A stretch of 64,000 nucleotides of DNA from Mesorhizobium sp. Its GTDB lineage: Bacteria; Pseudomonadota; Alphaproteobacteria; Rhizobiales; Rhizobiaceae. Location: assembly GCA_004020545.1 (NCBI GenBank), contig SAQE01000012.1, positions 1 to 64,000 of the forward strand, written 5' to 3'. The position numbers and the translations under genes were made by a program. Shown here piece after piece: positions 1,396 through 20,677 of the stretch. A model generated the notes under the pieces. It saw only the letters and a program-made list of their open reading frames with translations, was not told the DNA's origin and did no database searches. Each line of letters begins with the position of its first letter. Position 1 is the stretch's first letter.

Positions 1396-1499
1396 TGCGA
1401 AAGCTCCTCCAAGGGACGAGCGAAGATCGACCCGCATCACCTGAAAGCAAGTGGATATCTCAATCCCTTGAGTGACCGCAACGCGTTGACCTGCGGGCG

Positions 1500-2009
1500 C
1501 TAAGCTATGGCCGCAACGCCAACGATATAGTTCTTTCCATAGGCCTTGGCGCATTTCGGGCACGTCGTATAGAAGAAATAGACGTCGCCCGGCTCCGATT
1601 TTCGATCGCGCGCGATCTGCCGCATCTCCTCGTGCCACTGGCTTGCCTGGCTATATGGGCCTTCGAACACCTTTGTCAGAAAGTCGCCGCTCAGCGTGGT
1701 CATTTCTTCCTCGGGAACGGCTTTCGAGACTGAGAAAAGATGTTCGCTGGTCCAGGGGGAGAGATCGCGGCTGAGAACGATGAACTGGCCATCGGCCGAA
1801 GCACCGGCATCGTCGATGTGCTGGTTAACTCTGGCGAAAACGCTGCCCATGTTCACGGGGACATGCATGACGCTGCGGGTCGTCGCTCTCACGAATGGTT
1901 TGTCGCGGAAGTGCAGCTCCTGATCGTCCCAGCCGCCTGGATTGAATTTGGGACAGCAGCCAGTCGTGTTCACGCTGGCATCGTAATGCGGCGTCTCGTT
2001 CCTCTGCAT
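1500..2009 (-). CDS. Conserved protein, rhizobial family sometimes labelled hydrolase
   Basis: This 169-residue soluble protein contains an early TGCCPKFNPGGWDDQ stretch and a late FYTTCPKCAKAYGKNY stretch. The two cysteine clusters (CC and CPKC) suggest metal or redox chemistry, but no catalytic function is established. Relatives occur in many alphaproteobacteria. The ATG at 2009 is preferred over the one at 2015 because GGGAG then lies six bases upstream. An FNR/FixK box centred 62 bp upstream and the divergent groEL suggest induction under low oxygen (inference). Confidence 0.7.
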   Translation of the reverse strand: MQRNETPHYDASVNTTGCCPKFNPGGWDDQELHFRDKPFVRATTRSVMHVPVNMGSVFARVNQHIDDAGASADGQFIVLSRDLSPWTSEHLFSVSKAVPEEEMTTLSGDFLTKVFEGPYSQASQWHEEMRQIARDRKSEPGDVYFFYTTCPKCAKAYGKNYIVGVAAIA

Positions 2010-2064
2010 GGCCATCTCCCGATGTGAGCAGATGGCAGCAGAGCAGCGGAAGACTTAACCATCA

Positions 2065-2078
2065 TTGATTCCGGTCAA
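2065..2078. promoter_or_regulatory. FNR/FixK-type box upstream of the 2009 gene
   Basis: TTGATTCCGGTCAA matches TTGA-N6-TCAA. Its centre is 62 bp upstream of the minus-strand start at 2009. It is paired with a second box 42 bp away that faces groEL. Confidence 0.7.
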
Positions 2079-2106
2079 AACGGCGAACATGTCGGCGGAA
2101 CCGGAA

Positions 2107-2120
2107 TTGATGCACATCAA
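2107..2120. promoter_or_regulatory. Perfect FNR/FixK-type box upstream of groEL
   Basis: TTGATGCACATCAA is a perfect palindrome of the FNR type (TTGAT-N4-ATCAA). Its centre is 62 bp upstream of the groEL ATG, which suits class II activation near -41 with a short leader. Confidence 0.8.
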
Positions 2121-2175
2121 GGCCGATCGATGACAACGCGGCTAGGTGAACGATCAGCTAGTTTCGGAGACGATC

Positions 2176-3798
2176 ATGGCCCACAAACAGGTACTGTTCC
2201 GTTCGGCGGCGCGCGAAAAGATCCTCCGCGGCGCCACCCAGCTAGCCGACGCCGTGCGTGTGACGCTCGGTCCGCGCTCGAAGTCGGTTCTGATCGAGAA
2301 GAAATGGGGCGCGCCTATCGTCTGCAACGACGGGGTCACGATCGCCAAGGAATTCGACCTGAAGGACCCGGAAGAAAATCTCGGCGCGCGGATGTTGAGA
2401 CAGGCGGCCGAAAAGACGGGCGACATGGTCGGTGACGGAACGAGCACCTCGACCATCCTCGCCCATGCGATATTCGCCGACGGCGTGCGCAATGTCGTCG
2501 CGGGCGCGAGCGCTATCGACATCAAGCGCGGTCTCGATCGTGCGACGAAGCGCGTCATCGAAACGCTCAAACAGATATCGCGGCCGGTCTCGACCCGGCG
2601 CGAGAAGGAACAGGTGGCGACGATCTCCGCCCACAACGATCCGCTGATCGGCGAACTGGTCGGCGAGGCCATGGAGAAGGTCGGTGGCGAAGGCGTCATC
2701 ACGGTCGAGGAATCGAAGACCACCGAAACGGTCCTCGATGTGGTCGAAGGCATGCAGTTCGACCGCGGCTTCCTGTCCCCCTACTTCGTGACCGACACCG
2801 AGAAGATGGAGGCGGTGCTGGAAGACGCGCTCGTGCTCATCGTCGAGAAGAAGATCTCTTCGCTCAACGACCTGATCAAGCTGCTCGAGGCCGTGGCGAA
2901 ATCAGGATCGCCACTGCTTGTGATCGCGGAGGATGTCGAGGGCGAGGCACTGGCTACGCTGATCGTCAATCAGATCCGCGGCACGTTCAAGAACTGCGCC
3001 GTGAAGGCGCCGGGCTTCGGCGACCGTCGCAAGGCCATGCTGCAGGACATCGCCATCCTGACGGGCGGGCAGGTCATTTCAGAGGATATCGGCCTCAAGC
3101 TCGAAAATGTGACGATGGCGCAATTGGGACGCGCGAAGCGCGTGGTCGTCGACAAAGACAACACCACCATCATCGGCGGTGGCGGCGAGCAGAAGACCAT
3201 CAAGGCACGCGTCGAGCAGATCCGGCGTGAGGTCAGCGATACGACCAGCGACTACGACCGGGAGAAGCTTCAGGAGCGGCTGGCCAAGCTCGCCGGCGGC
3301 GTGGCCGTCATCAAGGTCGGCGCGCCGACCGAGGCCGAGATGAAATCCAAGAAGGAGGCGCTCGACGACGCCATCAGCGCCACCAAGGCCGCTGTCGCGG
3401 AGGGCATAGTGCCTGGCGGCGGACTGGCCCTGTTGCGCTGCATCGGTACGGTCACGGAGGAGGAAGCGCGTTGCGAAGGCGACGAACGCACCGGCGTCCA
3501 GATCCTCAAGCGCGCTCTCGAAGTGCCTGTGCGCCAGATCGCCGAGAATTCGGCTGTCGACGGCGGCGTGGTCGTCGCCAGGATGATCGAGGGCACGGGA
3601 AATTTCGGCTTCGACGCCGGCCGCAAGGAATATGTCGACCTTGTCGAGGCCGGTATCATCGACCCGACCAAGGTCGTGCGTATCGCTCTTGAGAATGCCG
3701 TCTCCGTCGCCAGCGTCCTGCTCCTGACGGAAGCGACCATGACCGAGATTCCGGAGCCGACAAAGGAGCGGCCGCTTGAACCGGAAATGTCGATGTAG
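2176..3798 (+). CDS. groEL: Chaperonin GroEL (extra copy, without groES)
   Basis: This is a full-length 540-residue Hsp60 chaperonin that folds proteins in a cytoplasmic double ring using ATP. Family motifs are intact: the ATP loop VTLGPRS, the catalytic Asp in [21 protein letters not shown] (classical GDGTTT region, slightly altered), and [16 protein letters not shown] near residue 400. The start at MAHKQV fits the usual GroEL N-terminus. The C-terminus ends in charged residues (EPEMSM) rather than the usual Gly-Gly-Met tail. No groES lies upstream, so this is an accessory copy that must use GroES from elsewhere. A perfect FNR box upstream implies low-oxygen expression (inference). Confidence 0.95.
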
Positions 3799-3919
3799 GC
3801 AGCGACAAATCCGGCGACCGCCCAGGCGCGCCCTACACAAATTCTTCCGTGTCGGCGGAAGTAAGGCTCAAATGCAAGTTCGCGAGCGCTGTTCCAGCTT
3901 GGCGATGGTTGGACAAGTT

Positions 3920-3937
3920 GCGCGCCTTTCGGCGCGC
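3920..3937. terminator. Hairpin between convergent groEL and ATPase genes
   Basis: GCGCGCC and GGCGCGC pair perfectly around a TTTC loop, between the two convergent stop codons. There is no T-run on either side, so it is at best a weak or bidirectional terminator. Confidence 0.35.
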
Positions 3938-3946
3938 ATTGCCCCA

Positions 3947-6532
3947 TCAAACGCTCAGCCGCCCCGCCCAGCGATATTTGAGGAACTCGAGCAAGGCGAC
4001 CAACCCGATTGCCGTCGCCAGCACCGCGGCCAGATCGCTCAGCCCCGGCGGTCCAAATTGGAAGATGACGTTCGCGGGCGGCCACAGGAGCACCAGTCCG
4101 AGCACCATCGAGTCGACGGCGATGACGGCGCCGAGGACGCGATTGGGTCTTGACAGCGCTGAAATCAGCGAGGCGCTGAACGCACGATTGACCAGAACCA
4201 GGCCGACTATGCTCACCACCAGGGCAAAGAAAGTCAGGGCGCGGACCTCACTTTCCGGAATTCCCGAGTGAAGGCCAAGCAGGAAGATAGCGGCGACGAC
4301 TGCCCATGCCAGCACGCCCTGGACCAGGCTCCATGCCATCAACGGGCGCGTAAATAGCGCTTCTTCCGAATCCCGAGCCGGCCGTTCCATTATGTCCTCT
4401 TCCTCGGTCTCCGATTCAAAGACGAGCGAGCAGACCGGGTCTATCACCATCTCCAGAAAAGCGATGTGAATTGGACCGAAAAGAATGGGCAGGCCGAACA
4501 CCAAGGGCATCAGAGCCAACCCTGCGATCGGCACGTGCACGGCGAAGATGAAGCTCATCGCCTTTCGCAAATTGTCGTAGATGCGCCGTCCAAGCCGGAT
4601 TGTCTTGACGATCGAACCGAAGTCGTCGTCCAGAAGGACGATGGAGGAGGCTTCACGCGCGACGTCCGTGCCGCGTCCGCCCATGGCGATGCCGATATCC
4701 GCAGTCTTCAGCGAGGGAGCATCGTTGACCCCGTCCCCGGTCATGGCGACAACTTCGCCGTTCGCTTTCAGGGCATTCACGATGGCCAGTTTCTGGTCGG
4801 GCATGATGCGCGCGAACACGGTCGTCGTCTTCACCGCCCTGCGAAGGTCTGCGGCGCTCAGCACCCTCAGCTCTTCTCCCGTGACGACATCCGCGACATT
4901 CAGTCCGGCCTCGTGCGCTATGGCCTTTGCGGTGGCAGGGTAGTCCCCGGTGATCATGACCACACGGATACCCGCCGACCGGCAAGAGGCCACGGCATCC
5001 CGAACCCCCGGCCGTATCGGATCAGCCAGACCGACCAGGCCCATGAATTCGAAAGCAAAGCCGGTTTGCTCGTCGGCCAATCCGCTCTCGGCATGTCGCG
5101 CGCGTGCCACCCCAAGGACCCTTAGCCCCTCGACCGCCATGGCATCGGCGTCTTTCCGGATCGATGCGGCCCGTTCTGTGCCCAAGCGACAAAGCTTTAG
5201 GATCGCTTCCGGCGAGCCTTTGGCGGCGACAAGGCAGTCCGGATCGCCTGCGTTCGTCCGCCAGACGTTCGACATTGCCAGCAGCTCTGGCCGAAGTCCG
5301 TAGGAGCGAACCAGCTGCCGGTCTCCTGCATCCGAACGCCTCGGCAGTCTTTCGGCCGAGAGCTCGAAAAACGCCTTTTCCATAGGATCGAAAGGAACCT
5401 CGGCACTCGCAAGCACTCCAAGTTCGACCAGATCGCGGAATGCCTCGGGAACGACATCTGAGGTCTTCAGAAGCGGGAAGATGCCTCCGCCCGGCGTCCT
5501 CAACTCCGCAATGGCCATCTGGTTCCTGGTCAGCGTTCCGGTCTTGTCGGTGCAGAGCACAGTCGCGGATCCAAGCGTTTCAATTGCCGCGGCTCGGCGG
5601 GTCAGCACGCGCACCTGGGATATGCGCCAGGCGCCCATGGCCATGAAAATCGTCAACACCATCGGAAACTCTTCCGGCAGCATCGACATGCCCAAAGCAA
5701 TACCCGCCAATATCCCGTCAAGCCATCCGCCTCGCAGCCAGCCATATAGCAGCACCGCCAGCGCGCTGACGGTAGCGCCGGCCAAGGCGAACAGTCTTAC
5801 AAGATGCCTTGTCTGCATTTGCAGACGAGGCGCTTCGCTCTCCAAGCTGCTCAGCGCCTGCCCGATCGCCCCGATTTCCGTTCGTGCTCCGGTCGCCACC
5901 GCTTCACCGAGGCCCGAGCCGCGAACGACAAGCGATCCGGAAAATACGGCAGGGATGTTATCGCCGCCCGGCCGGTGTTTGACCGTACGATCCAACGGGA
6001 CGGCGGCTACCTTTCTCACCGGAACGGATTCGCCGGTGAGCAAGGATTCGTCGACTTGGAGATCACGGCTTTGGATCAGCAGCAGATCGGCGGGAATACG
6101 GTCTCCCTCGGCAAGCATGACGATGTCGCCGCGCGCCACCTCACGACCGGCAACGCGCCGGCGTTCGCCATCGCGCACGACCAGGGCACGAGGGCTTGTG
6201 AGATCGCGAAGGGCTTCCAGGACGCGCTCCGTGCGCGCTTCCTGGATGATGGTTATTGCAACCGACAAAGTGGCGAAACACAGCAGGATCAATGCCTCCC
6301 GCAGATCGCCAAGCAGGAGATAGACCGCGCCACCACCCAGCAGGAGCGCAAGCATCGGCTCGCGCATGACCTCGAGGGCGATCCGCAACGGTGTACGGCG
6401 TCCGGATCTGGGTAGCTCGTTCGGCCCCTCGGCCAGTAGCCTGGCTCGTGCTTCGGACTCGCTCAGGCCGCAAGACGTCGCGGCACCCGGTTCTATTTCG
6501 TTCGCTTGATGCTTGGCTGCTGCCCTCGGCAT
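3947..6532 (-). CDS. P-type cation-transporting ATPase (P2-like)
   Basis: This 861-residue membrane pump uses ATP to move a cation. It has the P-type hallmarks in order: an N-terminal cation ATPase domain, LLTGESVPV (actuator loop), the TM4 motif PEEFP, the phosphorylated Asp in DKTGTLT, the nucleotide-binding KGSPE, MITGD, and TGDGVNDAPSL. Hydrophobic segments before PEEFP and in the last 200 residues form the channel. The TM4 motif is PEEFP rather than the PEGLP of calcium pumps, so the ion is uncertain; calcium, magnesium or a monovalent cation are all possible. It follows the universal stress gene by 41 bp on the same strand, probably as one operon. The start codon has only a weak ribosome site. 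Confidence 0.9.
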   Translation of the reverse strand: MPRAAAKHQANEIEPGAATSCGLSESEARARLLAEGPNELPRSGRRTPLRIALEVMREPMLALLLGGGAVYLLLGDLREALILLCFATLSVAITIIQEARTERVLEALRDLTSPRALVVRDGERRRVAGREVARGDIVMLAEGDRIPADLLLIQSRDLQVDESLLTGESVPVRKVAAVPLDRTVKHRPGGDNIPAVFSGSLVVRGSGLGEAVATGARTEIGAIGQALSSLESEAPRLQMQTRHLVRLFALAGATVSALAVLLYGWLRGGWLDGILAGIALGMSMLPEEFPMVLTIFMAMGAWRISQVRVLTRRAAAIETLGSATVLCTDKTGTLTRNQMAIAELRTPGGGIFPLLKTSDVVPEAFRDLVELGVLASAEVPFDPMEKAFFELSAERLPRRSDAGDRQLVRSYGLRPELLAMSNVWRTNAGDPDCLVAAKGSPEAILKLCRLGTERAASIRKDADAMAVEGLRVLGVARARHAESGLADEQTGFAFEFMGLVGLADPIRPGVRDAVASCRSAGIRVVMITGDYPATAKAIAHEAGLNVADVVTGEELRVLSAADLRRAVKTTTVFARIMPDQKLAIVNALKANGEVVAMTGDGVNDAPSLKTADIGIAMGGRGTDVAREASSIVLLDDDFGSIVKTIRLGRRIYDNLRKAMSFIFAVHVPIAGLALMPLVFGLPILFGPIHIAFLEMVIDPVCSLVFESETEEEDIMERPARDSEEALFTRPLMAWSLVQGVLAWAVVAAIFLLGLHSGIPESEVRALTFFALVVSIVGLVLVNRAFSASLISALSRPNRVLGAVIAVDSMVLGLVLLWPPANVIFQFGPPGLSDLAAVLATAIGLVALLEFLKYRWAGRLSV

Positions 6533-6572
6533 TCGCTCAGGTCCAAATGTTCGAGGGTGGGCTCCGCCTAAA

Positions 6573-7409
6573 TCAATGCGACATCAAGACCGGCAAGCGC
6601 AGATCCGACAGAATGCCTTCCGTTGCCCCGCCGAGCACAACGTCCCTGAGGCGAGAGTGGCCCCAGCCACCCATGACCAGCAGGTTGCCGCCGATCTTGA
6701 GGGCATGCTCCTGAAGAGCGATGCCAATTTCATTATTGCCGATTTGAATTGACCCTGCCTTCGCCCGCAGCCCGCGCGCCGCAAATCCATGCGCAAGACG
6801 TTCAGCAATATCCTTGCCTGGCAGCACCTTCTCATCTGTCACGGTAAGGATCGATATTGCCGATGCCCGCTCCAGGAACGGCCTGGCATCGGCCACCGCC
6901 CTTGCAGCCACGCGACTGCCGTCCCAGGCGATCACCACATGGTCAAGAGCGCCGACATCCCTCCCGTCCGGAAGAATTAAGGTCGGGCGACCGGAGCTGA
7001 ACACGACCTCCTCGACAGTCATTCGGGCAGTTTCATTGTTCGCGGTCCATCCCACCAGGCAGAGATCGAAATAGCGCCCTTCCCGCGCGGCAGCCTCTCC
7101 GATCAGGGCTGGCTGGGCTTTCAGCTCCTGTCTGGTCAAGGTCACGTTGCATCGCGCGGCCTCAGCCGCGACTGTCTCCAGCAAAGCCTTGCCGCTGTTG
7201 CGACTGGCCGCCTCCACCTCCCGGATCTTGGCCGGAAGGTCGAGCAGGAAGCTGGACAGCGCGTTCGAAACGTCCGGGATATCGACGTTGATGACCGCTG
7301 CATCCAGCGTGGCGGCGATCTGCTTGGCCACCGCCACCGCGTTCGACGCAACCTTCGGCCCCGGCGGGTCCGGATAAGTCGGCAAGAACAGGGACGCCAA
7401 CAACTGCAT
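6573..7409 (-). CDS. Universal stress protein, tandem UspA domains
   Basis: At 278 residues this is two UspA domains in one chain. The second ends with the ATP-binding signature GGWGHSRLRDVVLGG (G-x2-G-x9-G type), and the first is more degenerate. Such cytoplasmic proteins help survival under starvation or low oxygen. It is likely co-transcribed with the P-type ATPase downstream. A perfect FNR box lies 227 bp upstream, leaving a long leader if that box drives it. It resembles the second Usp gene at 11819. Confidence 0.9.
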   Translation of the reverse strand: MQLLASLFLPTYPDPPGPKVASNAVAVAKQIAATLDAAVINVDIPDVSNALSSFLLDLPAKIREVEAASRNSGKALLETVAAEAARCNVTLTRQELKAQPALIGEAAAREGRYFDLCLVGWTANNETARMTVEEVVFSSGRPTLILPDGRDVGALDHVVIAWDGSRVAARAVADARPFLERASAISILTVTDEKVLPGKDIAERLAHGFAARGLRAKAGSIQIGNNEIGIALQEHALKIGGNLLVMGGWGHSRLRDVVLGGATEGILSDLRLPVLMSH

Positions 7410-7582
7410 TTGCTTGTCTCCCTCAATGTTACGCCTACTGGCGACGCCGATATCGGTTCACCTCGGGACGCTCGGCTGTTGTCCTCGTTGTCGCGTGCGG
7501 CGTCCAAAGTGCATGCGATCAAGCCATCGGATGCGCTGCGCTCCGCTCACTGCATCCACGCGTCCGAAAATCGATAGGCGCT

Positions 7583-7600
7583 CCGGCCTCATAAGGCCGG
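7583..7600. other. Perfect inverted repeat in the usp leader
   Basis: CCGGCCT and AGGCCGG pair around a CATA loop. It sits about 45 bp from the FNR box at 7630 on the usp side. It could be a leader hairpin at the start of the usp transcript or the terminator of the upstream DUF3775 gene. Confidence 0.4.
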
Positions 7601-7629
7601 CAAATCAGCACGATCGAGAGTTTCGTGCC

Positions 7630-7643
7630 TTGATGCGCATCAA
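7630..7643. promoter_or_regulatory. Perfect FNR/FixK-type box between DUF3775 gene and usp
   Basis: TTGATGCGCATCAA is a perfect TTGAT-N4-ATCAA palindrome. The only gene it can serve by position is the minus-strand usp at 7409. Confidence 0.75.
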
Positions 7644-7650
7644 CTTCGGT

Positions 7651-8076
7651 TCACTCGGGGCAAGACAGGCCGAGAGCGTCAAGACCCGCCTCGAGGTGAT
7701 CGCCGAGAAGCGGGTTGCCGCAGAGATAGCCGGCTGTGTGTTTGTTGTGAGCGTAGGCGGCCTGCTGGCGGACCTCCTCCCAATCGGCCGCCTCACCGTC
7801 ATCCCGGCCGAGCCACATCAACGCCACGAGGTCGATCTGCTCGTCGATAGAGAGCTCCGAGATCAGCGAACCAAGCTCCTCACGCACAGGATCGTCATCA
7901 TGGTCCTGAAGCACTGCAATCTCATTGTCGTCCGTGGGATTGGACCCCGCGTCAGGTTCGGTAACGGCAACCTTGACGTCGAATTCATGTGCCTTGGCGA
8001 CTATGAAGCAGATTTTCCGGACGGCAATTGCCAGTTCAGGCGTCTCGGCGTCCTCACTTCCAATTCCGCGTTTCAT
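7651..8076 (-). CDS. DUF3775 domain protein
   Basis: This 141-residue acidic cytoplasmic protein carries the DUF3775 pattern: an N-terminal helix (ELAIAVRKICFIVAKAHEF), a linker rich in Asp and Glu, then LSIDEQIDLVALMWLGR and a C-terminal segment containing NPLLGDHLEAGLDAL. Its function is unknown. The start at 8076 has AGGAG seven bases upstream. It follows the cytochrome gene by 61 bp on the same strand, so the two are probably co-transcribed from the FNR-like box at 8499. Confidence 0.8.
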   Translation of the reverse strand: MKRGIGSEDAETPELAIAVRKICFIVAKAHEFDVKVAVTEPDAGSNPTDDNEIAVLQDHDDDPVREELGSLISELSIDEQIDLVALMWLGRDDGEAADWEEVRQQAAYAHNKHTAGYLCGNPLLGDHLEAGLDALGLSCPE

Positions 8077-8137
8077 CCGACATCTCCTCTTCGTCTTCAG
8101 CGCTCCCTCTATGAAATGCAGGTCTGGATGGCCATCA

Positions 8138-8464
8138 TCATCGATCGAGGCTCCCGATGTAGGCGATGATGGCCTCGATCTGGTCGGGAGCTGCCACGAA
8201 CTCGGGCATGTCCGGGTGGCCGGTGGAGATTCCCTCGGCGAGGGCTTCCTGCAAGTCTTCGATCGGATAGCGGCGATGCAATGAACGAAACGGCGGAGCA
8301 TCAGGGTGGGTGCTTGCGCCGGCCGCACCAACCGCATGGCAACGCGCGCAGTTTGCTTCGACCAGCCTCTTGCCATAGGCGATCTGCGAACTGTCGCCCG
8401 CCCAGGCAGGCAATGCGAAGGCGACTGCAAACGGCAGGATCTGGAGCGCTGTTCGACGTTTCAT
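8138..8464 (-). CDS. Small c-type cytochrome
   Basis: This 108-residue periplasmic protein has a signal peptide (cleavage likely after AWA, about residue 22). It has one haem site, CARCH, and a distal methionine candidate in HPDMPEF, as in class I cytochromes c. It would carry single electrons in the periplasm, possibly to a terminal oxidase. It lies between phaC and the DUF3775 gene, with an FNR-like box centred 41 bp upstream of the ATG. Confidence 0.88.
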   Translation of the reverse strand: MKRRTALQILPFAVAFALPAWAGDSSQIAYGKRLVEANCARCHAVGAAGASTHPDAPPFRSLHRRYPIEDLQEALAEGISTGHPDMPEFVAAPDQIEAIIAYIGSLDR

Positions 8465-8498
8465 GTGTGAAGATTACGCCGCGAACGGACGCTGAACC

Positions 8499-8512
8499 TT
8501 GACCTGGCTCAA
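8499..8512. promoter_or_regulatory. FNR/FixK-like box upstream of the cytochrome gene
   Basis: TTGACCTGGCTCAA fits TTGA-N6-TCAA but the inner bases are asymmetric. Its centre is 41 bp from the ATG at 8464, leaving almost no leader if used as a class II site. Confidence 0.5.
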
Positions 8513-8526
8513 ACTGCCGAAACGCA

Positions 8527-10404
8527 CTATCGTTCAAGGACATACGCACCGGGCGCCGCGCAAATCGCCTTCAAGTCGCCCGCGGCGCCGGACCGGTCGG
8601 CTGTGACCTCACGACCGGAGTGCCGCGCCAGCCATTCCACCCAGGCTGGCCACCAGGAGCCATATGTCACAGTCGCGCTGTTCGCCCATTTATCCGCGTC
8701 CGGACGGATATCCGCGTGGCGGCAGCTGAGTCGCCGGTAGGAACGGCCCGGGTGACCGGGCTCGGAAACGATGCCCGCATTGTGTCCGCCGCTTGTCAGG
8801 ACGAAGTCGATGTCGGTGTCGAGCAGGTAAGTCAGCTTGAAAACCGAGCGCCACGGCGCAACGTGATCCGTCTCGGTGCCGACCGCGAACACCGGCGATC
8901 GAATGTCTTCCAGATGGATGGGCCTGCCCCCGACACGAAAGCGCCCTTCGACAAGATCGTTGTCCAGATAAAGCTGCCGCAAATATTGCGACTGCATACG
9001 GAACGGCATCCGGGTGGAGTCGGCGTTCCAGGCCATGAGGTCGGTCATCGGAGCGCGCTGGCCGAGCAGGTATTCGCGCACGATGCGTGACCAGATCAGG
9101 TCCTGCGAGCGAAGCATTTGGAAAGCTCCAGCCATGCGGCGCTGATCGAGGGTGCCCTCGACCCACATCATGTCCTCGATCAGGGTGATCTGGCTCTCGT
9201 CCATGAAAAGGCCGAGTTCGCCTGGTTCTTCGAAATCGACCTGCGCAGCGAAAAGCGACAGGCTGGCAAATCGGTGATCGCCGTCGCGGGCCATTGCCGA
9301 CGCGGCAATCGACAGCAGTGTCCCGCCAAGGCAGTAGCCCACCCCGTGGATCCGGCTGCTCCCAGTCGCCTTCCCGACCTCATCCAAGGCCGCCATCACG
9401 CCGAGGCGGCGGTAGTCGTCCAGGGACAGTCCACTCTGATCGCTACTCGGATTGCGCCAGGAGATGCAGAAAACCGTATAGCCGCTCTGCACAAGGTAGC
9501 GGACCAGCGAGTTCCGCGGCGAAAGATCGAGAATGTAGTATTTCATGATCCAGGCGGGGGCTATGAGGATCGGCTCCTCCTTCACCGTGCCCGTCATTGG
9601 GGCATAGCGGATCAACTCGATCAGCTCGTTTCGGAAGATCACCTCGCCCGGCGTGATGGCGACCTCGATGCCTGGCCGAAACCGTTCCGCGCCGGCCGGG
9701 GGTTTGCCGTCGATCAGCCGAAGCAGGTCCTCGACGAAGTTGTTGGCCCCGCTTATGAAATTGGCGCCGTTTTCCTTAAAGGTCTTGTCGATGACCTCCG
9801 GGTTCAGCGAAGGGAAATTCGAAGGCGAAACGGTGTCCAGGATTTGCCGGCTGTAGAACTCGACGAGGCGCTCGTGCCTCCTGGTGACTCCCGGAAACCC
9901 GATGGTCGCATTGTGCCACCATTGCTGGGAGAGCAGGAAGGCTTGCTGCATGGCGTTGAAGGGGAAAACCTGCCACGCCTGGTGCTGGAACCTTCTATCT
10001 TGCGGCAAGGGCACGATCGTTGGCGCCGCCGCGCCCATTCCAAGCCCGCAGCGAAAGACAAAATCACTCAGCCTCGCAACCTTTTCGATCGCTTTGGCAC
10101 GGACCTCCCACTGCTTGCCCGGTGACGAGGACAGGTGCAGCAGCCAGTCCTGCCAGGCTTGCACGAGGCTGATCGGCGAAATGCCTCCAGTGAAGGCCGC
10201 CAGCAAGGCATGCAAGAACCGATCGACGTCGCGAAAGATGCCCCCGGCTTCATCGTCCGGCAGCGGCAGCACCGAGGCGCCGGTCGCAGTCACCGCGCCA
10301 TGCCCCGACTTTCGTCGCGCGCCCCCGTTCCCCGCCTCGTCGTAAACGCTCGGGACGGAGGACCGATCAGCAGGTTTCCGCCCCTTCTTCCTTGATCGCA
10401 ACAT
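8527..10404 (-). CDS. phaC: Poly(3-hydroxyalkanoate) synthase, class I-like
   Basis: This 625-residue enzyme polymerises hydroxyacyl-CoA into storage polyester at the granule surface. It has a PhaC N-terminal domain, then the lipase-like box GYCLGG with the catalytic Cys near residue 358, Asp near 513 (ETDHVAPW) and His near 541 (SGGHNAG), so the triad is complete. The ATG at 10404 is one base after the phasin stop codon, indicating translational coupling. Longer frames would overlap the phasin. It is probably expressed with the phasin from the perfect FNR box at 11037, which would link polymer storage to low oxygen. Confidence 0.93.
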   Translation of the reverse strand: MLRSRKKGRKPADRSSVPSVYDEAGNGGARRKSGHGAVTATGASVLPLPDDEAGGIFRDVDRFLHALLAAFTGGISPISLVQAWQDWLLHLSSSPGKQWEVRAKAIEKVARLSDFVFRCGLGMGAAAPTIVPLPQDRRFQHQAWQVFPFNAMQQAFLLSQQWWHNATIGFPGVTRRHERLVEFYSRQILDTVSPSNFPSLNPEVIDKTFKENGANFISGANNFVEDLLRLIDGKPPAGAERFRPGIEVAITPGEVIFRNELIELIRYAPMTGTVKEEPILIAPAWIMKYYILDLSPRNSLVRYLVQSGYTVFCISWRNPSSDQSGLSLDDYRRLGVMAALDEVGKATGSSRIHGVGYCLGGTLLSIAASAMARDGDHRFASLSLFAAQVDFEEPGELGLFMDESQITLIEDMMWVEGTLDQRRMAGAFQMLRSQDLIWSRIVREYLLGQRAPMTDLMAWNADSTRMPFRMQSQYLRQLYLDNDLVEGRFRVGGRPIHLEDIRSPVFAVGTETDHVAPWRSVFKLTYLLDTDIDFVLTSGGHNAGIVSEPGHPGRSYRRLSCRHADIRPDADKWANSATVTYGSWWPAWVEWLARHSGREVTADRSGAAGDLKAICAAPGAYVLER

Positions 10405-10405
10405 T

Positions 10406-10789
10406 TCAGGTCGCGAGAGTTGCGGCAGCCATGTCGTCGATCGTCGTTTCCGCCTCTTTCCGAACCCGCCCGGCGGCTTCGGAAGCCAGCTTGGCGCCGA
10501 TGGACGCGAACTTGCCGACCTCGCCGGCATAGTCGGAGGTGGCGTTCTGGACAAAGTTCGCGAACACGTCGAAGGCATCGACGAATTCATCGCCGCCCGT
10601 CAGTTTTTCGAGGAGCTTCAGATCATCCTCGAACCGCCGCTTGAGGAAGGATGCCCCTTCGATCTGGCAGCGCAGCGTCGCGCGCAGCGAATGGGCCTGC
10701 AGAGCGACAACCGCTCGCATGAATTTCTGCCCGGCACTGGCAAAAGGGGGCAGTTCCGACGCAGCAAATTCGTCTGCATTCCAGATCAT
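10406..10789 (-). CDS. Phasin (PHA granule-associated protein)
   Basis: This 127-residue protein has the phasin pattern: amphipathic helices without cysteine-rich or catalytic motifs, with FVDAFDVFANFVQNA and a long Ala/Glu/Lys helix (VRKEAETTIDD). Phasins coat polyhydroxyalkanoate granules and control their size. The start at 10789 has AGGA about seven bases upstream. It directly precedes phaC, which supports the call. Confidence 0.85.
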   Translation of the reverse strand: MIWNADEFAASELPPFASAGQKFMRAVVALQAHSLRATLRCQIEGASFLKRRFEDDLKLLEKLTGGDEFVDAFDVFANFVQNATSDYAGEVGKFASIGAKLASEAAGRVRKEAETTIDDMAAATLAT

Positions 10790-10813
10790 GATGTCTTCCT
10801 TTCGCTCTTGGCT

Positions 10814-10981
10814 TCAATGTCTTGTTTTCGGCTGGCGATGCCGAGAGTGGCGTCCGAAGCCGTAGCTTGCCGGCGGGTGTCTGCCTCTCCTGGACGGAGG
10901 CAGCTCGATATAGATCGCGGCCCCGGCGACAAAGGCGAGGCAGAGCACGGCACCCAAAAGGAGAATGTCTTCAGCAGACAT
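10814..10981 (-). CDS. Possible 55-residue single-span membrane protein
   Basis: A short frame opens with MSAEDILLLG, followed by a hydrophobic run to about residue 25 (AVLCLAFVAGAAIYI), then a basic, histidine- and arginine-rich tail. It would be a small inner-membrane protein. A perfect FNR box is centred 62 bp upstream of its ATG, the same spacing as for the genes at 2009 and 2176, and the phasin gene follows by 24 bp. There is no strong ribosome site. Coding status is therefore tentative. Confidence 0.4.
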   Translation of the reverse strand: MSAEDILLLGAVLCLAFVAGAAIYIELPPSRRGRHPPASYGFGRHSRHRQPKTRH

Positions 10982-11036
10982 GGCATCAGCGCCTGTTGGT
11001 TCCGATCAAACATCGCAGCATCCGTTGAAGCTGACA

Positions 11037-11050
11037 TTGATCGAGATCAA
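11037..11050. promoter_or_regulatory. Perfect FNR/FixK-type box upstream of the phasin-phaC operon
   Basis: TTGATCGAGATCAA is a perfect TTGAT-N4-ATCAA palindrome. By position it serves the minus-strand small ORF, phasin and phaC genes. Confidence 0.8.
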
Positions 11051-11104
11051 CCGGATTAAGTTGCATGCCCTCGGGCACCGTCCCAACGACCTCGCATCTC
11101 GGCT

Positions 11105-11118
11105 TTGACCGTGATCAA
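11105..11118. promoter_or_regulatory. FNR/FixK-type box upstream of the flavin-reductase-like gene
   Basis: TTGACCGTGATCAA matches TTGA-N6-TCAA. Its centre is about 80 bp upstream of the ATG at 11191. It forms a divergent pair with the box at 11037. Confidence 0.7.
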
Positions 11119-11190
11119 GGCGTGCGGCGGCATTGGGGGCAACAAGTCGATCCGAACGGTGTGTCGCGGATGCCTAGCGAGGTGACGGAG

Positions 11191-11724
11191 ATGAAGGAAC
11201 TGCCGCTTGCCGATGTGTATCGGCTGATTGAACCTGGCCCAGTCGTCCTGCTGTCGACCAGATCCAGCGGAGGCCGCGCCAACGTCATGACCATGTCATG
11301 GCACATGATGGTTGAGGTCGCGCCGCCGAGGATTGCCTGCATCGTGTCCAGCGGCGACCTCTCGTTCTTCACGTTGCGGAAAACAAAGGAATGCGTGATT
11401 GCGGTCCCCGCCGTCGAGCTGGCGGAGAAGGTCGTCAAGGTCGGCAACTGCTCCGGTCGGGATACCGACAAGTTCGCGACCACCTGGCTGACGCCGCTGC
11501 GCGCCGAGCGGGTGTCGGCGCCCCTGATCGCCGAGTGCTTCGCCAACCTCGAGTGCCGCGTCGTCGATACGAGACTGGTCAACAGATACAATCTGTTCGT
11601 CCTGGAAGTCCTCAAAGCCTGGATCGATCCGGCACAGCCGAAGCCGAAGACAATCCATCACATCGGGAACGGCGGCTTCATCGTGGATGGGGAAGTGATC
11701 CATTTCGAGTCCCGCATGCCCTGA
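11191..11724 (+). CDS. Flavin reductase-like (FMN-binding split-barrel) protein
   Basis: This 177-residue protein resembles the flavin reductase / FMN-binding split-barrel family: VVLLSTRSSGGRANVMTMSWHM near the N-terminus, a RIACIVSSGDLSFFTLRKTKE segment that would contact FMN, and NCSGRDTDKFATTW in the middle. It probably binds FMN and reduces a flavin or small substrate in the cytoplasm; the partner is not evident. The ATG at 11191 is chosen because GAGGTG lies six bases upstream; an ATG at 11170 is possible. An FNR-type box precedes it. Confidence 0.8.
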   Translation: MKELPLADVYRLIEPGPVVLLSTRSSGGRANVMTMSWHMMVEVAPPRIACIVSSGDLSFFTLRKTKECVIAVPAVELAEKVVKVGNCSGRDTDKFATTWLTPLRAERVSAPLIAECFANLECRVVDTRLVNRYNLFVLEVLKAWIDPAQPKPKTIHHIGNGGFIVDGEVIHFESRMP

Positions 11725-11742
11725 AGGCCATACGGCATCACT

Positions 11743-11756
11743 TTGATCGGCATCAA
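11743..11756. promoter_or_regulatory. Perfect FNR/FixK-type box upstream of the second usp
   Basis: TTGATCGGCATCAA is a perfect TTGAT-N4-ATCAA palindrome, centred 70 bp upstream of the ATG at 11819. Confidence 0.8.
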
Positions 11757-11818
11757 GGCGAGTTCGTCTCGGCAAATTAGCTTCGGACATCGAAACACTC
11801 GAACCGAAAGCCATATCG

Positions 11819-12643
11819 ATGAGCTACAAATCCATTCTCCTGAACCTTGGCATCGACGGTCCGATCGAACCGCTCGCTCTGGTCGGTATCGACCTTGCCA
11901 GGCGTTTCGACGCCCGCCTGATCGGATTCTGCGCCGCCGATGCTCCGTTGCCGGTGACGATGGCGCCGGAGGGAGCGGCAATTGCGGCCGAGCTCTGGGA
12001 GCAATCGCGGGATGAAATCCGGCAGCGGCTGAAGGACCTGCGCGGCAAGTTCGAGAATCTCGTCGCCGGGGCAGTCGAGACGGACTGGCGCGGCGCGGTC
12101 GAAAGTCCGGATGCCGCCATGGCGAGGAGTTCTCGTCTCGCCGACCTCATCGTTACCGGTGCCGCCCAGGGCGCGTCCACGGGCGATTCCTATCGCGCAG
12201 CCGATCCGGGCAGTTTGGTGTTGCGCGCCGGCAGACCCGTGCTGGTCGTGGCAAATGGCTCGGCGAGTCTGCCGACAGGCAGGGTCGTGGTGGCTTGGAA
12301 GGACACGCGTGAAGCGAGGCGTGCCGTGGCGGACGCTGTGCCGCTGATGGCCATGGCCAGTGAAGTCACGATCGCCGCGGTCGATCGCAATCCGGATGAT
12401 TGGATCAGGGACGGCGTCAAGGACGTTGCGCGTTTCCTCGACGGCCACGGCATCAAGGCGCGTACCGAAATCCTGAAGTCCGACGATGAAGGCAACCGCC
12501 TTGTCGATTTCCTCGCCTCGGTCCGTGCCGAACTGGTCGTCTCGGGCGCCTACGGACACAGCCGGTTGCGGGAATGGGTGTTCGGTGGGGTTACCCGCTC
12601 GTTGCTCGACGAGGTCTGGCTCAATCGGCTGATGTCGAGCTGA
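11819..12643 (+). CDS. Universal stress protein, tandem UspA domains
   Basis: This is a 274-residue tandem UspA protein with MSYKSILLNLG at the start of domain one, GRVVVAWKDTREARRAV opening domain two, and the nucleotide-binding signature GAYGHSRLREWVFGGVTRSLL near the end. It is expected to act in the cytoplasm as a stress-survival factor. It has its own perfect FNR box and is transcribed away from the phaC operon. It is clearly related to the 6573 gene but diverged, so it is not a recent duplicate. Confidence 0.9.
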   Translation: MSYKSILLNLGIDGPIEPLALVGIDLARRFDARLIGFCAADAPLPVTMAPEGAAIAAELWEQSRDEIRQRLKDLRGKFENLVAGAVETDWRGAVESPDAAMARSSRLADLIVTGAAQGASTGDSYRAADPGSLVLRAGRPVLVVANGSASLPTGRVVVAWKDTREARRAVADAVPLMAMASEVTIAAVDRNPDDWIRDGVKDVARFLDGHGIKARTEILKSDDEGNRLVDFLASVRAELVVSGAYGHSRLREWVFGGVTRSLLDEVWLNRLMSS

Positions 12644-12794
12644 TGCTGCGCCAGAAATCTCGCGCAAGCTGTTCACCTGGTCGCTGGGCCGGTGAAGCGC
12701 CGCCAGAATGTTGAAAGGTGGGGGCTCGCCAAGAGGCGTGACTTACCATACCGGCGCTTGGGCATGATCGAATCGACGTTTTCTTCTGGCGGGA

Positions 12795-12808
12795 TTGACC
12801 GAGATCAA
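12795..12808. promoter_or_regulatory. FNR/FixK-type box upstream of a 71-residue ORF
   Basis: TTGACCGAGATCAA matches TTGA-N6-TCAA. Its centre is about 67 bp upstream of the ATG at 12868, the only plus-strand frame that follows. Confidence 0.7.
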
Positions 12809-12867
12809 ACCCGACCTGCCCAATCAGTCACTATGGTTTGCCATTTGGCATTCGGGTACCCCACTTA

Positions 12868-13083
12868 ATGAGAAGCGCTGCTGCGAAGCTTGTCGATGTT
12901 TGCAATGCCCAAAGAAACAAGGGGGCGGACTTTCCAACGATCTGGAGGGACGTGCTGAAGACGCATCCGTGTGTGCGCGGACTGCCGATCCAAGACAGCC
13001 ACGAAGGTGGCCCGATCTTGAAGGTTCCCCTGATTACCGGCCAGTTTCTCGTGTTCCTCGGCTCGCATTTTTCTCTTTTGTAG
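12868..13083 (+). CDS. Small conserved-looking protein, 71 residues
   Basis: This frame starts MRSAAAKLVDVCNAQRNKGA and continues with DFPTIWRDVLKTHP and a C-terminal VPLITGQFLVFLG. The composition (Trp, Asp, regular hydrophobics) looks like a folded protein, and similar short proteins are recalled from rhizobia. Function is unknown. An FNR-type box is centred 67 bp upstream. There is no strong ribosome site. It fills an otherwise empty 529-bp gap between the usp gene and the host-attachment gene. Confidence 0.5.
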   Translation: MRSAAAKLVDVCNAQRNKGADFPTIWRDVLKTHPCVRGLPIQDSHEGGPILKVPLITGQFLVFLGSHFSLL

Positions 13084-13172
13084 ATTCTGCCCCATGCAGG
13101 CGGGTCCAACGTGGCCGCATTCGGTGCCCCGCTCCACAAGGCAAAGGGGCACCGATCAAAGCAGTTCGTCGG

Positions 13173-13577
13173 TCAGACCGTCAAAACGGCGTCCTTGATC
13201 GACTCGAGCGAATGTTTGACGAAGTCTTTGCCGATCTCGCCCGCGAGTTTCGCATTCAGTGAAGGCCGATAATGTTTTCGCATTTCGCCGAGCGTCCGGG
13301 GATCGGCGATCACCAGGATATGCTCATACGATTCCTCGAGCGCCTGATGGTTGAGATAGTTTGCAACGGATCCGGCGAAATTATCTTCTCGCAGCCGTGA
13401 CTCATCCGGATTGGCGGTGGAACTGCGATGCCTGCCGCCGGATCCGGTGTCAGCCACCTCGAGAACGGGATCCTCGATTTCGACCCAATCGAGATGAGGT
13501 TCGTGGCCTTTGGTGTGGAACAGCCGCAGCCTCTCGCCATCCGTGACCGCGACAAGGGTGGCATTGTTCAGGATCAT
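13173..13577 (-). CDS. Host attachment family protein
   Basis: This 134-residue protein is of the family named for attachment to host cells in Agrobacterium. It shows the family pattern: ATLVAVTDGERLRLF near the start, a charged middle (STANPDESRLREDNFAGSVANYL) and EHILVIADPRTLGEMRKHY, which resembles bacterial eRF1-like folds. The molecular function is not established. The ATG at 13577 has GGAG seven bases upstream. An FNR-type box at 13676 is centred 105 bp upstream, so it probably belongs to the same regulon. Confidence 0.85.
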   Translation of the reverse strand: MILNNATLVAVTDGERLRLFHTKGHEPHLDWVEIEDPVLEVADTGSGGRHRSSTANPDESRLREDNFAGSVANYLNHQALEESYEHILVIADPRTLGEMRKHYRPSLNAKLAGEIGKDFVKHSLESIKDAVLTV

Positions 13578-13675
13578 TGTGTTTCTCCGCAAACGGATCA
13601 GCTGGGATTTAGGGCGCTGTCCGATGAATTCATTGCTGTCGCGAGGCAGAAGATTCCAGATCCGGTCGCCTCGCC

Positions 13676-13689
13676 TTGACTTTGATCAA
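13676..13689. promoter_or_regulatory. FNR/FixK-type box upstream of the host-attachment gene
   Basis: TTGACTTTGATCAA matches TTGA-N6-TCAA. It lies between the minus-strand attachment gene and the stop of the ArsR gene. Confidence 0.65.
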
Positions 13690-13732
13690 AGGGACAGAGG
13701 CATGATCCGTTCACGACGCGCAGCGAGCAGCG

Positions 13733-14029
13733 TTAACTCGGGCAGAAGGCGGAATGTAATGCCTCGATCACGGTGAGCACCTCCGGCCGCGTAATCCGAT
13801 AGTAGACCGTCGTGCCCTCCCGGCGCGCCTCGACCAGCCCGTCCGCCCTCAACCGCATGAGCTGCTGCGACATCGGCACCTGGTCGATGTCAAGCAGGTC
13901 GCGCAACTCCGCCACCGAGCGCTCCTCGCCTCCCAGGGCGCAAAGCACGAGCAGCCGCTGCGGATGGGACAGGCTCTTGAGCAGTTCAGCCGCCTCTCCC
14001 GAGGCGGGGATCATTTCTCTTACATTCAT
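13733..14029 (-). CDS. ArsR-family thiol-switch repressor, BigR/SqrR type
   Basis: This is a winged-helix regulator of about 98 residues from the ATG at 14029. It contains LSHPQRLLVLC, the recognition region VPMSQQLMRLRADGLVEARREG and TVYYRI. Two cysteines, C30 (VLCAL) and C96 (SAFCPS), are 66 residues apart, the same spacing as the sulfide-sensing pair of SqrR and BigR. Those proteins form a polysulfide bridge and release DNA. It is divergent from an SQR-like gene, which fits sulfide control. Upstream ATGs in frame could add up to 43 residues; the start is uncertain because an inverted repeat overlaps it. Confidence 0.8.
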   Translation of the reverse strand: MNVREMIPASGEAAELLKSLSHPQRLLVLCALGGEERSVAELRDLLDIDQVPMSQQLMRLRADGLVEARREGTTVYYRITRPEVLTVIEALHSAFCPS

Positions 14030-14056
14030 GTTCTTGAATTTATGATTTTTGAATGT
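14022..14056. promoter_or_regulatory. AT-rich inverted repeat, candidate ArsR operator
   Basis: ACATTCA (14022-14028) and TGAATGT (14050-14056) are perfect inverted arms around a 21-bp AT-rich core that itself contains TTCTTGAA. It lies in the divergent promoter region and overlaps the likely start of the ArsR gene, as expected for autoregulation. Confidence 0.5.
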
Positions 14057-14122
14057 TACATGCAACCTGTGGATCGAGCTCATTTCGGCCTCACCATACA
14101 TTCGAGCCCGCCCATTGGGAAA

Positions 14123-14136
14123 TTGAGCCTGGTCAA
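14123..14136. promoter_or_regulatory. FNR/FixK-like box upstream of the SQR gene
   Basis: TTGAGCCTGGTCAA matches TTGA-N6-TCAA, centred about 70 bp upstream of the ATG at 14200. Together with the inverted repeat at 14022 it suggests dual control by sulfide and oxygen. Confidence 0.55.
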
Positions 14137-14199
14137 TGCGCCCGTGTGGCTTGCCCACACAATGGCGCGAGGATGAACTCCACGGGGAGGAAACCCATC

Positions 14200-15492
14200 A
14201 TGTCTCACATCGTCGTTCTCGGCGCCGGCCTCGGCGGCACCATTATGGCCTATGAAATGCGCGACAAGCTGCGCCGTGAGGACAGTTTGACCGTCGTCAA
14301 TCTCGGCACATCCTATTCCTTTGTGCCTTCCAACCCTTGGGTGGCCGTCGGCTGGCGGCAGCGCGATGACATCACCGTCGACCTGGCGGATACCTTCAAA
14401 CGGCGTGGCATAGCGCTGCGCCCGGAAGGCGCGAAGAAGGTGCATCCGAAGGAGAACCGCGTCGAGCTCAATGACGGTTCCTTCCTCGACTACGACTATC
14501 TCATCATCGCCACCGGCCCGGACCTCGCCTTCGACGAAGTGCCCGGCCTCGGGCCGTCGGGCCACACCCAGTCGATCTGCCACATCGACCACGCCGTCGC
14601 GACGAAGGACAAGTTCGACGAGTTGGTCCGCAAGCCAGGGCCTGTGATCATCGGCGCCGTCCAGGGCGCCTCCTGCTACGGGCCGGCCTACGAGTTCGCC
14701 TTCATCCTCGATACCGCGCTGCGCAAGGCCAGGGTGCGCGACCAGGTGCCGATGACGTTCGTGACGCCCGAGCCCTATATCGGACATCTCGGCCTCGACG
14801 GCGTCGGCGACACCAAGGGGCTGCTCGAAAGCGCCATGCGCGAGCGCCACATCAAGTGGATCACCAACGCCAAGGTAGCCTCGGTCGAGGCCGGCACGAT
14901 GCATGTCGAAGAGGTCAATGACGACGGCACGGTCAAGGCCAGGCACGATCTGCCTTTCGCCTTCTCGATGATGCTGCCGGCGTTCCGCGGGGTTTCCGCA
15001 CTGACGGGGGTCGAAGGCCTGGTCAATCCGCGCGGCTTCGTCACCATCGACAGATATCAGCGCAACCAGGCGCACCCGAACGTCTTCGCGATCGGCGTCT
15101 GCGTCGCCATCCCGCCTGTCGGCAAGACGCCGCTTCCGGTCGGCGTTCCCAAGACCGGCTTCATGATCGAATCCATGGTCACGGCCACCGCCGAAAACAT
15201 CGGCGCGCTGCTGCGTGGCGGGCAGCCCAGGGCCGTCGCCACGTGGAACGCGGTCTGCCTCGCCGACTTCGGCGACGAAGGCATCGCCTTCGTGGCGCAG
15301 CCGCAGATCCCGCCGCGCAACGTCAACTGGTCCTCGCAGGGCAAATGGGTCCACGCGGCCAAGGTCGGGTTCGAGAAATATTTCCTGCACAAGGTCCGGC
15401 AGGGGAAGAGCGAGACCTTCTACGAAGGGCTGGCGCTCGACATGCTCGGCATCAAGAAGCTCAAGGCGATCCATACCGAGCCGGCCGAATAG
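14200..15492 (+). CDS. Sulfide:quinone oxidoreductase-like flavoprotein
   Basis: This is a 430-residue FAD-dependent disulfide oxidoreductase. It has the dinucleotide fold at the N-terminus (VVLGAGLGG), LIIATGPDLAFDEVPGL, and three cysteines, C127, C159 and C353, close to the catalytic trio of known SQRs (about 124/156/347 in Aquifex). The enzyme oxidises sulfide to polysulfide and passes electrons to quinone at the inner face of the membrane. A GGGGAGG ribosome site precedes the ATG. It is followed by a DUF2892 membrane protein gene and is divergent from a BigR/SqrR-type repressor. Other flavocytochrome or NDH-2 relatives are less likely given the cysteines. Confidence 0.85.
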   Translation: MSHIVVLGAGLGGTIMAYEMRDKLRREDSLTVVNLGTSYSFVPSNPWVAVGWRQRDDITVDLADTFKRRGIALRPEGAKKVHPKENRVELNDGSFLDYDYLIIATGPDLAFDEVPGLGPSGHTQSICHIDHAVATKDKFDELVRKPGPVIIGAVQGASCYGPAYEFAFILDTALRKARVRDQVPMTFVTPEPYIGHLGLDGVGDTKGLLESAMRERHIKWITNAKVASVEAGTMHVEEVNDDGTVKARHDLPFAFSMMLPAFRGVSALTGVEGLVNPRGFVTIDRYQRNQAHPNVFAIGVCVAIPPVGKTPLPVGVPKTGFMIESMVTATAENIGALLRGGQPRAVATWNAVCLADFGDEGIAFVAQPQIPPRNVNWSSQGKWVHAAKVGFEKYFLHKVRQGKSETFYEGLALDMLGIKKLKAIHTEPAE

Positions 15493-15519
15493 GCAGGCTC
15501 ACATCCAAGGAGACATGAA

Positions 15520-15723
15520 ATGACCATCGACAAAGCCGTGCTGATGTTCGCCGGGTTCGTTGTGCTGATCTCGCTGGCGCTCGGCATCTACCATTCGCCC
15601 TACTGGTTCCTGCTGACCGCCTTCGCCGGCCTCAACATGATCCAGGCCTCCGTCACCGGCTTCTGCCCGGCGGCGATCGTGTTCAAGAAGCTCGGCTGCA
15701 AGTCGGGCGTCGCGTTCAAGTAG
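15520..15723 (+). CDS. DUF2892 (YgaP-type) membrane protein
   Basis: This 67-residue protein has two hydrophobic segments (about residues 6-24 and 28-45) and the family ending VTGFCPAAIVFKKLGCKSG with two cysteines. DUF2892 proteins form the membrane part of YgaP-type rhodaneses and often sit in sulfide/sulfane-sulfur operons. It is 27 bp downstream of the SQR gene on the same strand, so it is probably co-transcribed and may handle sulfane sulfur at the membrane (inference). Confidence 0.85.
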   Translation: MTIDKAVLMFAGFVVLISLALGIYHSPYWFLLTAFAGLNMIQASVTGFCPAAIVFKKLGCKSGVAFK

Positions 15724-15754
15724 CAGCCCGCCTTTCAGGAACCGCCGCCACGAA

Positions 15755-15781: not shown

Positions 15782-15809
15782 ACCATTTCAACCGACCGGA
15801 ACAAGCGCA

Positions 15810-20672: not shown

Positions 20673-20677
20673 CTCGC

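Follow-up and report, generated by a model that had tools for sequence, protein, structure and literature searches.

Low-oxygen survival islands are already known in other bacteria. As a locus, the closest known system appears to be the lxa locus of Burkholderia cenocepacia J2315, described as a chromosomal block of about 50 genes that is induced at low oxygen and plays a part in anoxic persistence. It includes six genes for universal stress proteins (Usp), an alpha-crystallin heat-shock protein and a phosphofructokinase, is absent in strain H111, and an Anr/FixK-like regulator has been proposed for it (PMC6127331, PMC9104464, PMC3759415). Here, we analysed a 64,000-nucleotide (nt) stretch of Mesorhizobium sp. 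(Rhizobiaceae; assembly GCA_004020545.1, contig SAQE01000012.1, positions 1 to 64,000), called the window throughout. Near one end of it, stress and energy genes stand behind repeated boxes of the FNR/FixK type (TTGA-N6-TCAA). We give a probability of about 0.8 to the reading that they belong to a patchily distributed low-oxygen survival island under FNR/FixK control, an accessory island of about 42 kb of which the window holds one end. Its newest part is orf71, a gene for a small protein.

Genes of similar kinds have been described in low-oxygen regulons elsewhere. In Bradyrhizobium diazoefficiens, the reported microoxia-induced proteins include the Usp proteins bll4644 and bll6069, the host attachment proteins bll4645 and bll5315, CBS proteins, phosphoenolpyruvate (PEP) synthase, glucokinase, PfkB (1-phosphofructokinase) and PhaC2, and putative direct FixK2 targets are bll5315, bll6069, blr6074 and phaC2 (PMC6515984). 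Fnr proteins of Herbaspirillum are reported to control directly phaC1, a phasin, Usp genes, cytochromes and cydAB (PMC5934665). In some Rhizobiales, control of phbC by FnrN/FixK was proposed by Tsoy et al. (PMC4999443), and the small heat-shock protein gene rlv_1399 is described as a target of the FnrN/FixK regulon (PMC11784457).

The window contains 12 sites of the form TTGA-N6-TCAA, compared with 0.39 expected from dinucleotide shuffles (n = 100, largest count 2), which is fewer than the roughly one site in 64 kb that the original prediction had allowed for chance. Ten of the 12 have the strict FNR/FixK form TTGAY-N4-RTCAA (0.11 expected), and the remaining two, at 8499 and 14123, are asymmetric (TTGAG-N4-GTCAA). 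Eleven sites had been listed in the original prediction as intergenic; every one is present where it had been placed, and all lie between genes according to the gene models and the frames read here. A twelfth had been overlooked. It starts at 14287 inside the sulfide-quinone reductase (SQR) gene and was set aside as a functional site because of this position; it is probably a chance occurrence, and a strict motif also lies inside the SQR gene of a relative, G011.

Nine strict sites fall within 12.2 kb (0.14 expected; Poisson P = 6e-14), compared with one per 86 kb in the genome. The whole genome (6.99 Mb in 188 contigs) has 81 strict sites and only seven of a reversed-motif control. The motif is thus not equally dense elsewhere, and chance clustering of the boxes was ruled out by the shuffles, the reversed-motif control and the Poisson probability. 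Clustering is not unique to the window, because dense stretches are also found on other contigs of the same genome, with 15 strict sites on C140, eight on C149, six in the first 23 kb of C100 and five on C117. We located 79 of the 81 genomic sites (two were not located), and only seven of these 79 lie in predicted coding sequence; the window itself is 86% coding.

Three tests, namely footprinting, promoter geometry and a positive control, agree, with exceptions, in suggesting that the boxes are used as regulatory sites. Footprinting covered 12 Mesorhizobium loci, with each gene matched in a subset of these. The cytochrome c gene has the box at -41 nt in four of four matched loci, groEL at -61 to -65 nt in four of four (94-96% identity), and SQR at -66 to -68 nt in all three. 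Before orf55, a small gene heading the phasin-phaC genes, it is found at -60 to -63 nt in four of four loci, and at -72 nt before a 42% paralogue on C100. The six closest matches of the second Usp gene (Usp 2; 67-85% identity) all carry it at -69 to -73 nt, and for the PF20603 gene it lies at -62, -65 and -56 in the matched loci L001, L008 and L012.

The geometry was assessed, taking one orientation per site, wherever a predicted start lies at a distance of 35-130 nt (40 sites). Of these 40 promoters, 21 have an A at +30.5 nt, counted from the centre of the box (background 21%; P = 1.4e-5, uncorrected for 58 positions). If the box is centred at -41.5, this is the -11 position, and hence the arrangement of a class II activator. 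The argument for such an activator geometry is indirect, being made from the sequence and not from mapped transcription starts. ccoN and hemN are classical FixK/FnrN targets. In this genome both were recognised above the NCBIfam cut-offs, and the box stands at -86 before ccoN of the cbb3 oxidase and at -42 before hemN. As a negative control, the 32 predicted genes at 20-56 kb of the window were examined, and all of them lack a box within 160 nt.

Several observations weigh against island-wide control by these boxes. The gene for the Host_attach/baeRF_family12 protein (baeRF12) has a box in three of seven relatives (-94 to -104) and none in the other four, and the flavin-reductase box is gone in three of seven. 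The first Usp gene (Usp 1) has its box in the window only at -227; in L001 it lies at -75, and L002 and L008 have none within 320 nt. No box was found within 320 nt of the P-type ATPase gene (3947-6532) in the window, nor within 320 nt of the DUF3775 gene, either in the window or in its six matched loci. The GroEL paralogue of the same genome (56% identity) has no box, the relatives used in the box comparisons are not independent of one another, and the main text of a Mesorhizobium huakuii bacteroid transcriptome paper mentions neither FixK nor FnrN.

For orf71, a box was found 59-85 nt upstream in 34 of 34 full-length or nearly full-length homologues examined, many of which are close relatives and thus not independent, and in none of three fragments. 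In the first set, 23 of 24 distinct upstream regions had the box, the exception being the fragment L012. It was also present at seven of seven further copies (six from other genera of the order, one from Mesorhizobium), at L081 from another order of the class, where its distance of 85 nt was worked out from coordinates, and at the plasmid copy L079. In the last set two of four had it, and the remaining two are fragments. The starts of the homologues were extrapolated from alignments; L007 has no ATG at that point. The plasmid copy (plasmid pB2-1-8, region 13157-25870) lies near nnrS and narGHJI, and its frame is absent from the incomplete gene table of that plasmid.

The protein is under purifying selection: six of the seven pairs compared gave ratios of non-synonymous to synonymous substitution rates (dN/dS) of 0.07-0.20, and in the remaining pair (L010) the synonymous sites are saturated. 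The conserved residues centre on an F-P-x-I/V-W motif. The orf71 alignment had 17 rows (L055, L056 and L058 left out; L054 and L057 dropped as repeats of L002 and L003). The structural model has a mean predicted local distance difference test score (pLDDT) of 89.5, with two helices followed by four short strands. No match was found in Pfam, NCBIfam or PHROGs, and a Foldseek search against the PDB returned nothing significant (best E 0.78). Copies occur in six families (f1, f14, f16, f23, f50 and f92), and the gene is rare: counting our own genome in each, it is present in at least three of 151 genomes of the family, eight of 397 of the order and two of 385 of the class, all lower bounds, with no more than 15 candidates scored per genome in two of these searches. 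orf71 is the part of the island that could prove new. A bolder proposal, which we hold to be less likely than not, is that it founds an undescribed low-oxygen protein family with such an anaerobox at every intact copy, present in at least six alphaproteobacterial families and travelling with such islands as a core survival effector.

The box before orf71 persists in homologues down to 36% identity while the surrounding DNA diverges. This bears on the idea that copied promoter cassettes built the cluster and that many boxes are passengers without regulatory effect. Near copies between contigs do exist, with hsp20 on both C100 and C140, and a 94% copy of the DUF3775 gene and a 79% copy of orf71 on C149. 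However, most boxes hold their distance to the start in relatives, and together with the persistence before orf71 this makes passenger boxes very improbable as an explanation.

As an island marker, orf71 has a patchy presence among close relatives, with a strong match in 13 of 37 Mesorhizobium genomes (own included) and one more weak match (G022); the rest of the island was searched only in genomes that carry the marker. The median number of boxes per genome is 42 with orf71 (n = 13) compared with 21 without it (n = 24; P = 2e-6), G022 with its 30 boxes being counted among the latter. G010 (90) and our own genome (81) have the most boxes.

The window begins at a contig end, and G011, a complete single-contig relative, shows what may lie beyond it. 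There, a single stretch of 12 kb holds 16 of the 17 island genes tested (window 433 to 15723), with identities of 71-99%. The P-type ATPase (window 3947-6532) was not found in this block, and Usp 1 is reduced to a 77-residue frame with 52 matching residues (L063, 3059017-3059250). Because Usp 1 is cut short and the adjoining ATPase was not found, the island is a mosaic. Past the window's left edge and behind a box, Pfam recognises in G011 an amino acid kinase, by context a carbamate kinase, an ornithine carbamoyltransferase, an arginine deiminase and an amino acid permease. Then follow a pyridoxamine-oxidase-like protein, a phosphoribosyltransferase, Hsp20, a P-type cation ATPase and an alcohol dehydrogenase. 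The block also holds a cytochrome c and a Usp (Pfam was run on the own-genome copies, on C100), and an acetyl-CoA synthetase-like gene named by eye only. The counterparts in our genome are contigs C16 and C100. Synteny alone puts them beside the window and groups the pieces C33, C16 and C100.

Of 50 listed strict sites in G011 (53 in total), 15 fall within 42 kb, one of them inside the SQR gene. The original prediction of a clustered low-oxygen stress island of the FNR/FixK type holds as to the statistics, the box-to-start distances, the class II signature and the gene content. The word "compact" does not: judged by G011, the 12 kb appear to be the end piece of a longer island, which unites stress, energy and transport genes, several Usp genes among them, in a single block. 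Two routes of acquisition were considered and rejected. None of the 185 plasmid records matching window 2000-15800 covers 80% of that stretch, which speaks against transfer of the whole island by plasmid. For a tRNA-flanked integration, no tRNA was found in the window, and the sole find in the eight loci scanned was a tRNA-Ser in L065, about 2 kb past the last Usp gene of the G011 block.

The composition of the larger block also bears on whether the boxes could mark a nodule (bacteroid) programme, that is, a FixK regulon for nitrogen fixation. The FnrN/FixK regulons of Rhizobiales are described as extending past redox functions and including phbC (PMC4999443), and for 55 of 62 microoxia-induced proteins of B. 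diazoefficiens, gene-level induction in nodules was reported as well (PMC6515984). On the other hand, no nod or nif gene was recognised by eye or in the Pfam scans run on the window and the G011 block, and in G011 the next box cluster noticed, near 7.29 Mb, is megabases away from the island at 3.05-3.09 Mb. Furthermore, 13 of the 37 genomes of the genus carry the marker orf71. We consider a mere nodule programme unlikely and prefer a survival island, which may overlap in part with nodule use.

A second box-rich region is found on C140 and C149 (L016-L019). It includes CBS-BON proteins, a glucokinase, PfkB, a PEP-synthase-like enzyme, FtsH, a BON protein and further Usp genes. Across the genome, at least seven of 15 Usp genes (13 from search rows, Usp 2, and the Usp on C149) have TTGA-N6-TCAA within 230 nt upstream, and two of five Hsp20 genes have a strict site about 240 nt upstream.

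Which protein would act on these boxes is a question of several candidates. The FNR-type regulator with four cysteines that the original prediction had noted is indeed present in the window, 42 kb from the island. Its genome search gave three close FNR matches (100, 66 and 60% identity, the 66% one on C44 and the 60% one on C117), and a fourth, at 36%, on C117, which we would guess to be FixK-like. With such homologues in the genome, the gene at 56730 cannot be singled out as the only regulator. The boxes of DNR and FNR differ very little, and FnrN, FixK and a possible NnrR/DNR are indistinguishable by their box. Another CRP/FNR member, of the nitric oxide-responsive NnrR/DNR type, could thus use nearly the same box, and the island would then answer nitrosative stress, not oxygen. 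The genome does hold five further weak CRP/FNR matches, and the box also serves denitrification genes, because the copper nitrite reductase gene on C117 (above the NCBIfam cut-off) carries one at -104; the neighbours of the plasmid-borne orf71 point the same way. However, no denitrification gene was recognised inside the island in a reading of the gene lists, which was not an exhaustive search, and ccoN and hemN bear the same box. A nitrosative-stress island is thus distinctly unlikely in our view, and control by FnrN and/or FixK is preferred. In the window, a hemerythrin-domain gene (57483-57950) separates the FNR-type regulator from the cyd-like genes.

The features are collected in Table 1. 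Because orf71, orf55 and the start of the cytochrome c gene escaped the gene finder, these frames were read by eye.

Table 1. Genes and boxes of the island end and of the regulator region; positions refer to the window.
Feature	Position	Strand	Details
PF20603 'Bact_hydrolase' protein	1500-2009	-	Pfam 7e-77; box 2065 at -62 nt
Two strict boxes, divergent promoter	2065-2078, 2107-2120		One per gene (PF20603, GroEL)
GroEL	2176-3798	+	Pfam; box 62 nt upstream
P-type cation ATPase	3947-6532	-	Pfam
Usp 1	6573-7409	-	Pfam; box 7630 227 nt upstream
Strict box	7630-7643		Between Usp 1 and DUF3775 gene
DUF3775 protein	7651-8076	-	Pfam; 94% copy on contig C149
Small cytochrome c	8138-8464	-	
Asymmetric box	8499-8512		Reads TTGAG-N4-GTCAA towards cytochrome c, at -41 nt
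Polyhydroxyalkanoate synthase PhaC	8527-10293	-	Start uncertain, open frame to 10590
Phasin	10406-10789	-	Pfam Phasin_2 24.3 bits (cut-off 24.9)
orf55, small protein	10814-10981	-	Hydrophobic N-terminal stretch; first in line before phasin-phaC
Two strict boxes, divergent promoter	11037-11118		11037 for orf55-phasin-phaC (62 nt), 11105 for flavin reductase (79 nt)
Flavin reductase-like protein	11191-11724	+	Pfam
Strict box	11743-11756		69 nt before Usp 2
Usp 2	11819-12643	+	Pfam
Strict box	12795-12808		66 nt before orf71
orf71	12868-13083	+	71 residues; box 12795 at 66 nt
Host_attach/baeRF_family12 protein (archaeo-eukaryotic release-factor-like)	13173-13577	-	134 residues; Pfam 2e-26 and 8e-24
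Strict box	13676-13689		105 nt before baeRF12 gene
ArsR-family repressor	13733-14083	-	
Asymmetric box (TTGAG-N4-GTCAA)	14123-14136		70 nt before SQR, 46 nt before ArsR gene
SQR	14200-15492	+	phmmer 4e-142 to solved SQR 3sz0; Pfam
Strict motif	14287-14300		Inside SQR gene; also inside SQR gene of G011
YgaP-like membrane protein	15520-15723		After SQR
FnrN/FnrL-type regulator	56730-57452	+	Cysteines 14, 17, 25, 113; NCBIfam FnrL 231 bits (cut-off 300); outside island
Strict box	58141-58154		42 nt before cydD/cydC-like genes; outside island
cydD- and cydC-like ABC transporter genes	58190-61395		Best NCBIfam CydD 278/435 bits, CydC 201/329 bits, both below cut-off

The gene names given in the original prediction stand for GroEL, both Usp, PhaC, the cytochrome c, the flavin reductase, the Host_attach/baeRF12 protein and SQR, and the phasin falls just below the Pfam cut-off. 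No groES is found among the predicted genes adjoining groEL (2176-3798). orf55 is conserved in four Mesorhizobium loci, with dN/dS of 0.36-0.64 in four pairs. If box 11037 exerts class II control, the orf55 transcription start would fall at about the position of a one-mismatch box at 10996-11009. Possibly, this box is a second, repressing site like that of Rhizobium leguminosarum fnrN, for which a second, repressing box is described (PMC7888657). For the baeRF12 and PF20603 proteins, a sequence search up to E 1 gave no relative with a solved structure. It is conceivable that the baeRF12 protein acts at the ribosome when oxygen is low.

The identity of the regulator, the induction at low oxygen, the roles of the genes and the survival role are all read from sequence, and the following mechanism is proposed on that basis. 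When oxygen falls, FnrN, as an iron-sulfur sensor, and/or FixK would bind the boxes. Bound at about -41.5 (class II), the activator would switch on many island operons together. The chaperonin, Usp and Hsp20 proteins would take over protein care, the polyhydroxybutyrate (PHB) synthase and the phasin carbon and electron storage, cytochrome c and SQR electron flow, and arginine deiminase would supply ATP without respiration. The release-factor-like protein and orf71 would be switched on in the same response, which makes them candidate effectors under predicted low-oxygen control. The joint outcome would be that a respiring soil bacterium survives low oxygen or its absence. The island would allow an incisive test of the means by which rhizobia of the soil endure waterlogging or life in the nodule.

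The original prediction had likened the genes to the DosR regulons. DosR is a response regulator with another box, from another phylum. The likeness is fair as one of gene families, and lxa itself has been compared with DosR (PMC6127331), but it is not membership, the boxes here being of the FNR/FixK type. With the DosR/DevR regulon of mycobacteria, the island would share the Usp, alpha-crystallin and phosphofructokinase families and the low-oxygen trigger, as far as that regulon is described in PMC6127331 and PMC2914252. In mycobacteria, the Balon homologue Rv2629 is reported to be activated by hypoxia (PMC10901736). Among the papers covered by a literature search, none joined DosR, FNR, universal stress protein and Rhizobium, and, as a weak negative from titles and the starts of abstracts of the matches listed, none described the island in Mesorhizobium.

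The FnrN/FixK regulon of Rhizobiales shares the box and would share the low-oxygen control, and in the cited passages no such island is named (PMC4999443, PMC7888657, PMC11784457). The main text of PMC4999443 contains neither "universal stress" nor "groEL", and that of PMC7888657 none of "stress", "usp", "groEL" and "phaC". The same kinds of genes occur in B. diazoefficiens at bll4644-blr4659 and bll6060-blr6074, judging likeness by gene name and neighbourhood by locus-tag numbers. In comparison with lxa, the likeness would lie in low-oxygen control and in a single block that combines stress, energy and transport functions and includes several Usp genes. Going by the descriptions, the first Mesorhizobium island may differ in its three Usp (one cut short in G011) and in its PHB synthase, SQR, GroEL and arginine deiminase, and PfkB and glucokinase are found on another contig (C140). 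The findings suggest that a rhizobial genus harbours an anoxia-survival island of the Burkholderia kind, whose operator sites can be read from the sequence.

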